Positions 1-46,361 of a stretch of DNA of 64,000 nt are shown here, one piece after another (the stretch's first letter is position 1; every line of letters starts with the position of its first letter). The stretch is from Candidatus Diapherotrites archaeon (GTDB taxonomy: Archaea > Iainarchaeota > Iainarchaeia > Iainarchaeales > 1-14-0-10-31-34). The stretch lies in NCBI GenBank assembly GCA_040755695.1, contig JBFMAK010000002.1, forward strand, positions 186,001 through 250,000, read 5' to 3'. The notes beneath the pieces are model-generated. The model ran no database searches and had not been told where the DNA came from. It was given only the letters and a program-made list of their open reading frames with translations. Position numbers and translations under genes: made by a program.

Positions 1-192
1 GATTTTGCAGTAATGATTGTTTCAATAATACTGGTTGTAGGATCAGTTTTTGCTTCAATGACAATAGGCGTAATCAATACAGGTAAAGAGAAAGGCGGCT
101 TCAAGTACATACTTCCATTCATCCTTATCTCTTTTGCGATATTCTTTGCTGTAAGAATCATGCTTGCAAGCGTCTTCGGGCAATTAGTCTAA
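1..192 (+). CDS. C-terminal end of a membrane protein, possibly TadC/ArlJ-like (partial)
   Basis: The frame is open from the first base and ends at TAA 190-192, so only the last 63 residues are visible. They form two hydrophobic segments separated by a short basic loop (NTGKEKGGFKY), as in the C-terminus of the membrane platform protein of archaeal type IV pili or archaella (TadC/ArlJ, type II secretion F family). The pilin gene just downstream on the other strand fits that reading, but no diagnostic motif is present. Any polytopic membrane protein would also fit. Confidence 0.55.
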   Translation, partial: DFAVMIVSIILVVGSVFASMTIGVINTGKEKGGFKYILPFILISFAIFFAVRIMLASVFGQLV

Positions 193-1623: not shown

Positions 1624-2478
1624 ATGGGCAAAAAGAAAAAAGCAAAAGTTAAAGCAAAGAAAAGGAAAATAAAAAAGAAAATCAGGCACAAAATCAGGAA
1701 GCCTGTCAAGAAGAAGAGAAGGAAAGCCATAAAAGAAATAAGGTCACTGATTAGAAGGGTCAGAGAGAAAAAAATAGAGGAAGCAGAAGAAGAACTCAAA
1801 AAAGGCAGGCTCAGCAAAAAAATAGAATTCACGGACGTAAAGAAGGAGCTCACGGAAGAAGAAGAACTCGCAGAATTATTGAGCCCGCGCAGGGGCTTGG
1901 ACCTAAAAATACTTCAAATGCTTGAAGACCTCCCAAAAAAGCATTTTACCACCCTTCTTTTGGTTGAGCCCACAACCTTCTCGCGCATAAACATTGAATT
2001 AATAAGATTGTTTTCAGCTGAAACAGACAAGAAAGGAATTTATGTTACATTGAACAGGTCATTCCAGTTCCTGAATGAAGTGCTGAAAGCAGAGAAAATA
2101 GACATAAGCGCAATGCACTTCATTGACGGCATTACAAGGATTACTGGAAGAATAGAATTAGAGGCAAAGAACTGCCAGTACATTGAAAGCCCTAACAATC
2201 TGGTTGAATTAAGCCAGGCAATAGAAAACGCAATAGACAAGATGCACGGCATGCCGGCATTCCTTATATTTGACTCAATTTCAACCCTTCTGATATACAA
2301 CAACATGGAGGCAGTGGAAAGATTCATTCATTCAATAGTAAGCAAGCTCCAGGAATCAAAATTAATGGGCTTATTTTTGATGGTGAAGTCGCCTGAAAAA
2401 GCTGACGTAATAAACACCATAAGCCAGTTCTGCGACAAAACCCTGGAATTGAACCACAGCGTGCCTAAAACACAATAA
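1624..2478 (+). CDS. KaiC/RecA-fold protein without a P-loop, basic N-terminus
   Basis: 284 residues. The first ~60 are extraordinarily lysine/arginine-rich, as expected of a nucleic-acid-binding or very flexible tail. From about residue 95 the pattern follows a KaiC/RecA-like fold: strand (TTLLLVEP), helix, strand, and a Walker B-like strand PAFLIFDSIS. Where the P-loop should be there is only EPTTFSRIN, so ATP hydrolysis is unlikely. It is co-directional with the real KaiC ATPase 16 bases upstream and could be its non-catalytic partner. Fold assignment is by pattern and is tentative. Confidence 0.6.
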   Translation: MGKKKKAKVKAKKRKIKKKIRHKIRKPVKKKRRKAIKEIRSLIRRVREKKIEEAEEELKKGRLSKKIEFTDVKKELTEEEELAELLSPRRGLDLKILQMLEDLPKKHFTTLLLVEPTTFSRINIELIRLFSAETDKKGIYVTLNRSFQFLNEVLKAEKIDISAMHFIDGITRITGRIELEAKNCQYIESPNNLVELSQAIENAIDKMHGMPAFLIFDSISTLLIYNNMEAVERFIHSIVSKLQESKLMGLFLMVKSPEKADVINTISQFCDKTLELNHSVPKTQ

Positions 2479-41234: not shown

Positions 41235-41329
41235 TAGCGGGGAAAGGATTTGAACCTTTGACCTTCGGGTTGCTCAATAATAAATTTTTTTATGAGCCCG
41301 ACGGGCACTCCTGGCTGCCCCACCCCGCT
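41235..41329 (-). tRNA. Initiator tRNA-Met (CAT) with 20-base intron
   Basis: Minus-strand AGCGGGGTGGGGCAGCCAGG start with an A1-T72 pair and GGG-CCC anticodon stem (TCGGG/CCCGA), both initiator features. The loop reads CTCATA, then an intron of about 20 bases (41271-41290; ends ambiguous by one base because of repeated T), then A38. The intron sits at 37/38, the canonical archaeal site. T-arm AAAGG TTCAAAT CCTTT; discriminator A, CCA not encoded. Confidence 0.92.
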
Positions 41330-44056: not shown

Positions 44057-44944
44057 ATGCTTTTATCTGAAAACAGAATTGGTGAAATAGTTAAATTAAG
44101 AAGAGAGGGCCTTGCGTACAAAAAGATTGCAAGGTATTTGAACCTTAGCAGTGCCACTGTTTATAAGTACGCCAGGAAAATCAAACTTCCCACAGAAAAA
44201 TTGGTCAAATTAATAGAAAATGAAGAATTAAACAAAAAAAGATTTTCAGAAAAATATGCTGTTGAAAAGGAAATAAAGAAACCAGAATTAAATGAAGAGT
44301 TAGCAACTATTTTAGGGCACTTATTTTTTGATGGAAGCGTCCAGAAACCAGTTAACTCAAAGTACAGGATTGATTACACCAACTATTCATTTGGATTAAT
44401 AAGAAATTTCAAGAGATTGATGTTCAAATTGTTTGGATTAAATCCAGCAAAGATAAGAGTTTTTTACAGGAAAACAAAATATTTTGGTGTACAATTTTAC
44501 TCGAAAAAAACTTGGAGCTTCCTTAAACAATATTCTAACTCGTTCAGCACTAAAGAAAATATTGGTGTTCCATTCCAAATTATGAATGCAAACAAAAAAA
44601 TAAAAGCTGCTTTTCTAAAAGCTTTTTGGGATGACGAAGGGGCTATTTGTTATGACGGAGAATTGAGCGCGAGCTCTAAGAGTGAAAAGATGATTAATGA
44701 TTTGATTGAATTGCACAATTCTTTTGAAGTAAGCTGCCGTAAAACAAAATCACACGAAGTTTACTATTTAAGTATACGCAGGAATAAAAACAATTACATT
44801 AACTTTTCTTCTAGAATAGGTTTTACTTTAGGTAAAGTTTCCAGGGGATACAATAAAGGTAAATTTAAAAATAACATATTGACCCAATTTATTAAATCCC
44901 ATAATTGGGCCCGTAGCTCAGTTGGCAGAGCATTGGCCTTTTAG
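44057..44944 (+). CDS. LAGLIDADG endonuclease with N-terminal HTH, running into tRNA-Lys
   Basis: 295 residues. N-terminal HTH (YKKIARYLNLSSATVYKYARK, core residues ARYLNLSSATV). The two LAGLIDADG motifs are ATILGHLFFDGSV and KAAFLKAFWDDEGAI, both with the catalytic-type acidic residue. The last 13 residues (NWARSSVGRALAF) are simply the translated 5' half of tRNA-Lys; the TAG stop spans anticodon base 36, base 37 and the first intron base. It is likely a homing endonuclease, or derivative, linked to tRNA introns. Confidence 0.8.
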   Translation: MLLSENRIGEIVKLRREGLAYKKIARYLNLSSATVYKYARKIKLPTEKLVKLIENEELNKKRFSEKYAVEKEIKKPELNEELATILGHLFFDGSVQKPVNSKYRIDYTNYSFGLIRNFKRLMFKLFGLNPAKIRVFYRKTKYFGVQFYSKKTWSFLKQYSNSFSTKENIGVPFQIMNANKKIKAAFLKAFWDDEGAICYDGELSASSKSEKMINDLIELHNSFEVSCRKTKSHEVYYLSIRRNKNNYINFSSRIGFTLGKVSRGYNKGKFKNNILTQFIKSHNWARSSVGRALAF

Positions 44945-45017
44945 GAAAGGCAAGCATTATTTTTGTTTTCTTTCACATGTAAGCCAAGGGTCCCGGGTTC
45001 GAATCCCGGCGGGCTCG
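44907..45017 (+). tRNA. tRNA-Lys (TTT) with 38-base intron
   Basis: Acceptor GGGCCCG (44907-44913) pairs with CGGGCTC (45010-45016), discriminator G. D-arm GCTC/GAGC, anticodon stem TTGGC/GCCAA, mature loop CTTTTAA with anticodon TTT, T-arm CCGGG TTCGAAT CCCGG. The intron is 44944-44981 at position 37/38 (one-base ambiguity). CCA is not encoded. The endonuclease gene overlaps its first 38 bases. Confidence 0.93.
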
Positions 45018-45027
45018 ATAAATTATA

Positions 45028-45486
45028 ATGAGTGGAAAAATGGAGCAGCAGAAAGGTGTTAGGGTAGGCATTGGCGTAATGATTCTGAAAAACAATAAAG
45101 TGCTTTTGGGTAAAAGGCATCTTGACCCAGAAAAGGCTGACAGCCTGCTGCACGGAGAAGGCACTTGGACAATGCCCGGGGGAAAGCTTGATTTCGGGGA
45201 AAGCTTTGAGGAAGGTGCATATAGGGAAGTCTTGGAAGAAACAGGAATTAAATTGAACAAGAAAAAATTAAGGATTGTAAGCATTACAAACGACAGGGTA
45301 ACAGATGCGCACTTCATAACCATTGGATTGCTTTGTGAAGACTTTTAGGGTGAACCCAAAGTAATGGAGCCAGATGAAATAACTGAATGGAAATGGTTTC
45401 CTTTAAACAATATCCCCAAGCCAATTTTTTTTCCAACTGAAAAGATTTTAAAGAACTATACTGCCAAACAGGTCTACAAGCATTAA
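45028..45486 (+). pseudogene. NUDIX hydrolase interrupted by in-frame TAG
   Basis: The Nudix box is complete (GGKLDFGESFEEGAYREVLEETGI, key residues G-x5-E-x7-REVxEExGI). The frame meets TAG at 45346-45348 after CEDF and then continues 45 codons to TAA 45484-45486 with the expected C-terminus (GEPKVMEPDEITEWKWFPL). One substitution, for example TCG to TAG, would explain it. The upstream part alone (106 residues) keeps the catalytic box. Starts ten bases after tRNA-Lys. Confidence 0.8.
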
Positions 45487-45551
45487 TAAAAAAATTCAAG
45501 GGAAATGTGCTTGCGGCTTCTTTTAAAAAGAGAAAAAATGTTAATTATATA

Positions 45552-46184
45552 ATGAATGAAGAAATTAATGCTTCTGAATGTGAACTTATAGGTGCTATAA
45601 TCGGTGATGGTCACATCCACAAAAAAGGCCCTAAATATTATGTTGGGGTTACGGGCAATATTCAAACAGATAAAAAATATTTTGGTTATCTCTCTAATCT
45701 TATCAAAAAAACATGGAATAAATCTCCACAAATAAGAAAGAGGGCTGGCGGGCTAAGATTAAGATTTTACTCTAAAGAGGTCGTAGAGAGACTTATTAAA
45801 AAATTTAGTTTGCCTTTCAATTTAGGCAAATGTTACAAAGTTAAAATACCTGACGTAATTGCTTCTGATTGGGGGTTGTTGAGGCACACTATTAGGGGAA
45901 TTGCTGATACTGATGGTTCAGTTTTCACTGCAAATAAACCCGGTTCACCAAATTATCCTTCTATTGAAATAACTACAACAAGCAGATTTTTAGCCAGTCA
46001 ATTAAGGAATATTTTGAACAAACAAGGATTTAAAGTGGCAAAAATATGGGGCTACAAATCAAAGGTGTCGCGTTATCCTGCTTATAAAATTCCTTTAAAT
46101 GGCAGGAAAAACCTTGAAAAATGGCTTAAAGAAATAGGTTTTTCAAATCCATATAAACTAAATAAAGCCTTGAATGCCCTTTGA
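45552..46184 (+). CDS. LAGLIDADG homing endonuclease-like protein
   Basis: 210 residues from ATG 45552 (an upstream GTG at 45507 adds 15 less likely residues). Motifs CELIGAIIGDGHI and LRHTIRGIADTDGSV each end in the acidic DG pair, typical of two-motif monomeric LAGLIDADG enzymes, here without an HTH. Downstream regions PAYKIPLNGRKNLEKWLKEIGF close the fold. The stop lies 45 bases before tRNA-Phe, which carries introns. Probably cuts an intron-less tRNA allele; it may instead have become a maturase-like factor. Confidence 0.85.
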   Translation: MNEEINASECELIGAIIGDGHIHKKGPKYYVGVTGNIQTDKKYFGYLSNLIKKTWNKSPQIRKRAGGLRLRFYSKEVVERLIKKFSLPFNLGKCYKVKIPDVIASDWGLLRHTIRGIADTDGSVFTANKPGSPNYPSIEITTTSRFLASQLRNILNKQGFKVAKIWGYKSKVSRYPAYKIPLNGRKNLEKWLKEIGFSNPYKLNKALNAL

Positions 46185-46229
46185 ATAATAAACTTTATAT
46201 TGATTTCACAGCCAATATTTTTATTATAC

Positions 46230-46361
46230 GGGAAGGTAGCTCAGTTCGGGAGAGCACACGATAGACTCAAGTCATTATTTTGGTTTGGTTTATGTGAAGC
46301 TGAAGCTCAGGATTGGGCAGAGACCGTGGTGTCGCGGGTTCAAATCCCGCTCTTCCCACCA
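46230..46361 (+). tRNA. tRNA-Phe (GAA) with two introns
   Basis: Acceptor GGGAAGG (46230-46236) pairs with TCTTCCC (46351-46357), discriminator A, and CCA is encoded (46359-46361). D-arm GCTC/GAGC; T-arm GCGGG TTCAAAT CCCGC; variable loop GTGTC. A single intron gives no loop with T33. Removing 46261-46298 (38 bases, position 30/31) and 46306-46322 (17 bases, position 37/38) leaves CACGG CTGAAGA CCGTG, a perfect stem with anticodon GAA. Confidence 0.85.

Follow-up and report, generated by a model that had tools for sequence, protein, structure and literature searches.

Introduction

Free-standing homing endonucleases are known already, as is integration at tRNA genes. SegB of phage T4 is described as a GIY-YIG enzyme encoded by a free-standing gene between tRNA genes, which cuts a tRNA region in related phage DNA and promotes the inheritance of the region that encodes it (PMC2988022; Brok-Volchanskaya 2008). 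In the collaborative homing pairs of phages (PMC10448857), the endonuclease gene lies outside but adjoining a phage intron, and its product cuts the intron site. Among archaeal enzymes, I-Tsp061I (2dch) and I-DmoI share a two-motif monomeric LAGLIDADG fold and are encoded inside rRNA introns. Archaeal integrative elements also target tRNA genes, with 3' tRNA repeats and the tRNA intron as a possible shield (PMC3293823). The idea that tRNA introns shield against integration is that of Randau and Soll, as cited in PMC4390854 and PMC4090602.

The locus described here carries two homing-endonuclease-like genes (HEGs), HEG1 and HEG2, and resembles each of these systems in part. Like SegB, its HEGs are free-standing and lie among tRNA genes. 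SegB, however, is a single phage case, whereas the present genes encode LAGLIDADG proteins, reside on archaeal chromosomes and belong to many clades, each tied to one isoacceptor. I-Tsp061I and I-DmoI are among the best structural matches of HEG2 but, unlike them, HEG1 and HEG2 are encoded outside any intron. As in the phage pairs, a HEG can adjoin an intron, although the introns here are bulge-helix-bulge type tRNA introns and are present in some cases only. The tRNA target, the 3' tRNA repeats and the possible intron shield recall the integrative elements; the actor here, in contrast, is a putative DNA-cutting homing enzyme, and no integrase was seen in the inserts at aligned empty sites. 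The literature that we searched, which included few subscription papers, yielded no account of archaeal HEG clades specific to particular tRNAs, nor of protein clades that map onto isoacceptors.

Organisation of the locus

The window, by which we mean the whole 64,000-nt stretch of DNA analysed, comes from a 1.30 Mb genome in 42 contigs that is 99.85% complete. A first-pass annotation had read the locus as an HTH-LAGLIDADG gene leading into an intron-bearing tRNA-Lys and a LAGLIDADG gene leading into a two-intron tRNA-Phe, with a broken NUDIX gene between, and ORF analysis, Pfam and tRNA models confirm this layout (Table 1). It placed both endonuclease genes directly upstream of their tRNAs; HEG2 stops 45 nt before tRNA-Phe, and HEG1 moreover overlaps tRNA-Lys by 38 nt, so that its last 12 codons lie inside the tRNA gene. 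The HEG1 stop codon, TAG at 44942-44944, spans the exon/intron junction (tRNA nucleotides 36-38), with exon 1 supplying its T and A and the intron its G. The annotation was also right to put both genes outside the introns: the ORFs lie beyond these 17-38 nt segments and are free-standing.

Table 1. Coordinates of the features discussed (positions in the window or, where a locus is named, in that locus).
Feature	Position	Strand	Details and basis
HEG1, HTH-LAGLIDADG free-standing gene, 295 aa	44057-44944	+	ORF and Pfam
tRNA-Lys(TTT)	44907-45017	+	exon 1 44907-44943; exon 2 44982-45017
tRNA-Lys(TTT) intron	44944-44981	+	38 nt, position 37/38
NUDIX hydrolase gene	45028-45487	+	one in-frame TAG at 45346-45348; Pfam and frame reading
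HEG2, two-motif LAGLIDADG gene, 210 aa	45552-46184	+	LAGLIDADG_3, E 8e-11
tRNA-Phe promoter spacer	46185-46229	+	TATA-like CTTTATATTG directly 3' of the HEG2 stop; sequence, and HEG-bearing versus HEG-free genomes
tRNA-Phe(GAA)	46230-46358	+	exons 46230-46260, 46299-46305 and 46323-46358; CCA encoded, to 46361
tRNA-Phe(GAA) intron 1	46261-46298	+	38 nt, position 30/31, anticodon stem
tRNA-Phe(GAA) intron 2	46306-46322	+	17 nt, position 37/38
Second 3' tRNA piece	L138 1695-1742		far side of HEG
Second 3' tRNA piece	L068 about 2141-2183		far side of HEG
Second 3' tRNA piece	L133 about 28-66		far side of HEG
Second 3' tRNA piece	L066 1022-1046		far side of HEG

HEG1 matches the Pfam families HTH_7 (E 1.5e-6) and LAGLIDADG_3 (E 2.8e-7), and both proteins score above the gathering cut-off for PF14528. 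An alternative HEG2 start, the upstream GTG at 45507, would give a protein of 225 aa. The NUDIX ORF (45028-45348) is stopped by the single TAG, past which the frame runs on into a NUDIX-like C-terminus; judged from the sequence, a recent pseudogene, an assembly error and readthrough are all candidate explanations for one in-frame TAG in an otherwise normal frame.

Both tRNA genes are detected by Rfam and by a phylum-specific tRNA model. ARAGORN alone miscalls the tRNA-Lys and missed or miscalled intron-bearing tRNAs. The precursors of tRNA-Lys and tRNA-Phe fold far better than shuffled sequences (z -3.3 and -3.9, respectively). The inferred spliced tRNA-Phe is predicted to form a perfect cloverleaf and the spliced tRNA-Lys a near-cloverleaf, whose predicted minimum has a displaced anticodon stem. 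A third intron-bearing tRNA of the window, tRNA-Met(CAT) at 41235-41329 on the minus strand with a 20-nt intron at 37/38, was likewise missed by ARAGORN. The source genome is rich in LAGLIDADG domains within very long frames, probably inteins, on contig 1 and others (L001-L017).

Association of free-standing LAGLIDADG genes with tRNA genes

HEG1 and HEG2 were used as protein queries against 87 genomes of the phylum, blind to tRNAs, and matches inside long frames (inteins) were left out. The tRNAs around the remaining relatives were located with Rfam and with a covariance model built from the phylum. The tree set comprises 91 proteins, none shorter than 110 aa, the best part of the search matches. 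Among the matches listed, 79 of the 91 free-standing relatives have a tRNA gene no more than 160 nt from an end of the ORF, where about 1% would be expected by chance from some 34 tRNAs per 1.3 Mb. The other 12 have no tRNA at this distance, and at least five of them are cut by a contig end (L057, L067, L075, L083 and L127). Many of the relatives' ORFs terminate within the tRNA gene, often using the tRNA's own TAG (nucleotides 13-15) as the stop codon. The window locus thus exemplifies a pattern found across the phylum. The earlier description of HEG1 and HEG2 as genes of homing-endonuclease type, free-standing and linked to tRNA loci, is supported, and this linkage is conserved well outside the source genome.

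Protein clades and tRNA isoacceptors

When isoacceptor labels are placed on the maximum-likelihood protein tree of the matches listed, 34 changes are needed, against 70.4 for shuffled labels, and none of 200 shuffles was as low. Clades track Phe, Thr(GGT), Thr(CGT), Ile, His, Arg, Gln, Glu, Val and Gly, and also the side of insertion and the orientation relative to the tRNA. Members of the HEG2 clade lie upstream of tRNA-Phe on the same strand, the arrangement also seen for the Arg(TCG), Arg(GCG), His, Gln, Glu, Leu(CAA) and Gly(TCC) enzymes and for most Val enzymes. A tail-to-tail arrangement with the tRNA is found in the Thr(GGT), Ile(GAT) and Gly(GCC) clades, and the Thr(CGT) clade is downstream of its tRNA on the same strand. 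By sequence, then, each clade of the family appears to be devoted to a single isoacceptor, on a single side: tRNA-Phe for HEG2, and tRNA-Lys with the neighbouring tRNA-Phe for HEG1.

Members of the Ile, Glu and Gly(GCC) clades have no flanking gene in common on either side, in counts of shared neighbours that may include tRNA-overlapping ORFs, which leaves the tRNA gene as the DNA shared by their sites. This argument is weaker for Thr(GGT), Phe and His, since the tRNA side of these loci is partly syntenic. Three observations count against reading the tRNA as a homing address. The HEG1 clade, located at a Lys-Lys-Phe tRNA cluster, is mixed, with Lys as the partner in most members, Phe in three and Met in one; the Thr(GGT) and Gln(CTG) enzymes each occupy two positions in the tree; and the source genome's third free-standing LAGLIDADG gene (L255, 961-2172, minus strand; 403 aa, with an HTH-like N-terminus) has no tRNA nearby.

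History of HEG2

At least five further genomes of the phylum carry HEG2 at the orthologous SerRS-Lys-Phe locus; SerRS adjoins the Lys-Phe cluster in the window and in G028, G035, G037, G058 and G065. Identity between genomes is 53-59% for HEG2 versus 53-60% for SerRS. Taken together with the orthologous location, this indicates that much of the history of HEG2 at the locus may be vertical, which likewise counts against the homing reading.

A pattern search of a collection of 85,000 species returned a single relative of HEG2, in archaeon GW2011_AR5 (AR5). This copy is frameshifted and lies tail-to-tail against an intron-bearing tRNA-Phe (the tRNA was read by eye). SerRS is about 129 kb away from this Phe-type enzyme in AR5, implying a separate placement at the same tRNA-Phe. 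Identity between the AR5 and window HEG2 is 46-59% by segment, close to the 53% of SerRS, and so gives no sign of recent horizontal transfer between AR5 and the phylum. A second AR5 gene ends inside tRNA-Gln(CTG), and its best match is one of the phylum's Gln(CTG) enzymes (40% over 294 aa, E 2e-69). A third such gene is found just downstream of a tRNA-Met-like gene. AR5 also has a LAGLIDADG gene within its 16S rRNA gene (L251), the usual arrangement of archaeal rRNA introns. A search of IMG/VR for a viral carrier gave, for HEG2, a single weak and partial relative (30% over 66 residues) and, for HEG1, none, so no viral carrier was found there.

Proposed homing at tRNA genes

Association with tRNA genes and clade specificity are observed directly, as are the insertion junctions, conserved active-site acids and decaying copies described below. 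From these we infer cleavage, its exact target and homing, and consider it probable that HEG1 and HEG2 are free-standing LAGLIDADG homing endonucleases, each addressed to a tRNA gene. Where an allele lacks the HEG, the enzyme would recognise a sequence within its tRNA gene or at the gene's end, and would make a double-strand break there. Repair from the donor would then place a copy of the HEG next to the tRNA. After the insertion the tRNA would remain functional, as would its promoter or one located inside the 3' end of the HEG. A point against this reading is that some HEGs lie 30-50 nt outside an intronless linked tRNA, which would seem to leave that tRNA exposed to its own enzyme. A broader proposal, towards which we are more doubtful than inclined, is that the radiation of these genes covers much of the tRNA repertoire, with one isoacceptor gene per clade, and that the plentiful, unusually sited tRNA introns of these genomes are in part escape alleles.

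Introns and endonucleases

The first-pass annotation had suggested that the endonucleases spread the neighbouring introns. In such collaborative homing, an arrangement known in phages (PMC10448857, PMC2988022), the enzyme would cut an intron-less tRNA gene at the intron site, the HEG and the intron would be inherited together, and the intron would protect the donor. As a general rule the suggestion is not supported. Introns occur in 21 of the 68 linked tRNAs other than tRNA-Phe (31%), against 44 of 171 (26%) for all tRNAs of five near-complete genomes (p=0.42; introns were counted by tRNA length, a few being corrected by hand from exon sequences). All seven Thr(CGT)-linked tRNAs are intronless, as are nine of the 12 linked to Thr(GGT) enzymes. 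The Thr(GGT) survey used a model that favours intronless genes, and its intron rate is biased accordingly. On these counts, endonuclease presence in related genomes is independent of introns for most isoacceptors, but not for tRNA-Phe.

For tRNA-Phe the suggestion may hold in part, as introns are found in 10 of 11 endonuclease-linked genes and in nine of 31 unlinked ones (p=8e-4, kinship ignored). Comparisons within genera point the same way in two cases: G054 of genus g27 has both HEG and intron where G055 and G056 have neither, and G037 of genus g21 has both where G038 has neither. Yet G052, also of g27, combines an intact endonuclease gene with an intronless tRNA-Phe. The HEG-linked Phe introns, moreover, sit at varied positions (30/31, 37/38, D arm and D loop), and heavily intron-bearing tRNA-Phe genes occur with no adjoining HEG in G018, G023 and G040, those of G018 and G023 having four introns and no endonuclease nearby. 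The linked and unlinked counts, together with G052, G018 and G023, show that an intron is neither needed for a HEG nor the sign of one, and we regard collaborative homing as unlikely. On the reading that HEG1 and HEG2 home to tRNA genes, judged from sequence comparison, introns could be at most one way to spoil the target, most plausibly for tRNA-Phe, rather than the cargo of the system. Three or four introns are present in the tRNA-Phe genes L208 (G018), L159 (G023) and L161 (G026), at sites that include the D loop or 8/9, 30/31, 37/38 and a position near the T arm.

Fold, active site and decay

The AlphaFold2 model of HEG2 has a pLDDT of 93.3, and its top Foldseek match is the archaeal I-Tsp061I (2dch, E 9.7e-11). 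Foldseek probability is 1.00 to I-Tsp061I, PI-PfuI and I-DmoI, and inteins are matched too. Both proteins have two LAGLIDADG helices that each close on a catalytic acid (GHLFFDG and FWDDEG in HEG1, GAIIGDG and RGIADTDG in HEG2), and the motifs ILGHLFFDG and FWDDEG are kept within the HEG1 clade. Domesticated LAGLIDADG relatives usually lose the catalytic acids. Here both acids are kept in 87 of the 91 relatives among the matches listed; three of the four exceptions show truncation or divergence at the first motif, while the fourth, L056 of G054, has neither acid. Frameshifted or stop-bearing copies are found at L018, L069 and L080 and in the HEG1 of G065.

The proteins might instead be domesticated host factors, retained to act as maturases or as regulators of the neighbouring tRNA. 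Maturases of the LAGLIDADG type are known, as is the WhiA regulator, and both are among the fold matches of HEG2; most clades have been faithful to one isoacceptor over long times, and HEG2 diverges about as slowly as SerRS. Such domestication is nevertheless rather improbable, given the retained acids, the broken copies, the absence of the HEG from sister species within one genus and the many target tRNAs that have no intron to splice. Retained acids alongside broken copies point to a homing gene's life cycle, not to that of a maturase or regulator.

Empty sites and insertion junctions

HEG-free alleles of the same site were seen in genus g27, in genus g7 and in the pair G037/G038. In g27, the HEG lies between tRNA-Lys(CTT) and tRNA-Phe in G054 and G052 and is absent in G055 and G056; its stop codon sits in the TATA-like promoter region of tRNA-Phe. 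The HEG-bearing G037 and the HEG-free G038 both have CACTTTTTTAAA, the TAA of which is the stop codon of the G037 HEG. Both comparisons put the HEG immediately 5' of the TATA box of tRNA-Phe. In four genomes of g7, the tRNA-Thr and the gene before it are near-identical and divergence begins a few nucleotides past the 3' end of the tRNA, a site that holds HEG remnants in G010 and G012 and none in G011 and G014.

At four loci a second 3' piece of the adjacent tRNA lies beyond the HEG, measuring 47, 42, about 38 and 24 nt (L138, L068, L133 and L066, respectively), suggesting insertion by way of the tRNA gene itself. These pieces resemble integrase attachment repeats; no integrase was seen at these loci. 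L120 has an apparent upstream 5' piece of tRNA-Gln that is too short to count. That tRNA genes are merely common integration sites and the HEGs passengers of integrase-type elements, as the direct repeats flanking these four HEGs could imply by analogy with att sites, is very improbable, because the inserts at the aligned empty sites of g27 and g7 consist of a HEG or HEG remnant only, most clades are on the 5' side of the tRNA, and specificity tracks the HEG protein tree.

Implications

If HEG1, HEG2 and their relatives are homing endonucleases addressed to tRNA genes, they would make up a naturally occurring collection of endonucleases directed at defined tRNA genes, and would account for the short ORFs that end inside tRNA genes of these genomes. 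The proposal of Randau and Soll that tRNA introns act as a shield would also become testable. Should the escape-allele reading be true as well, the protective-intron hypothesis would gain a concrete attacker.
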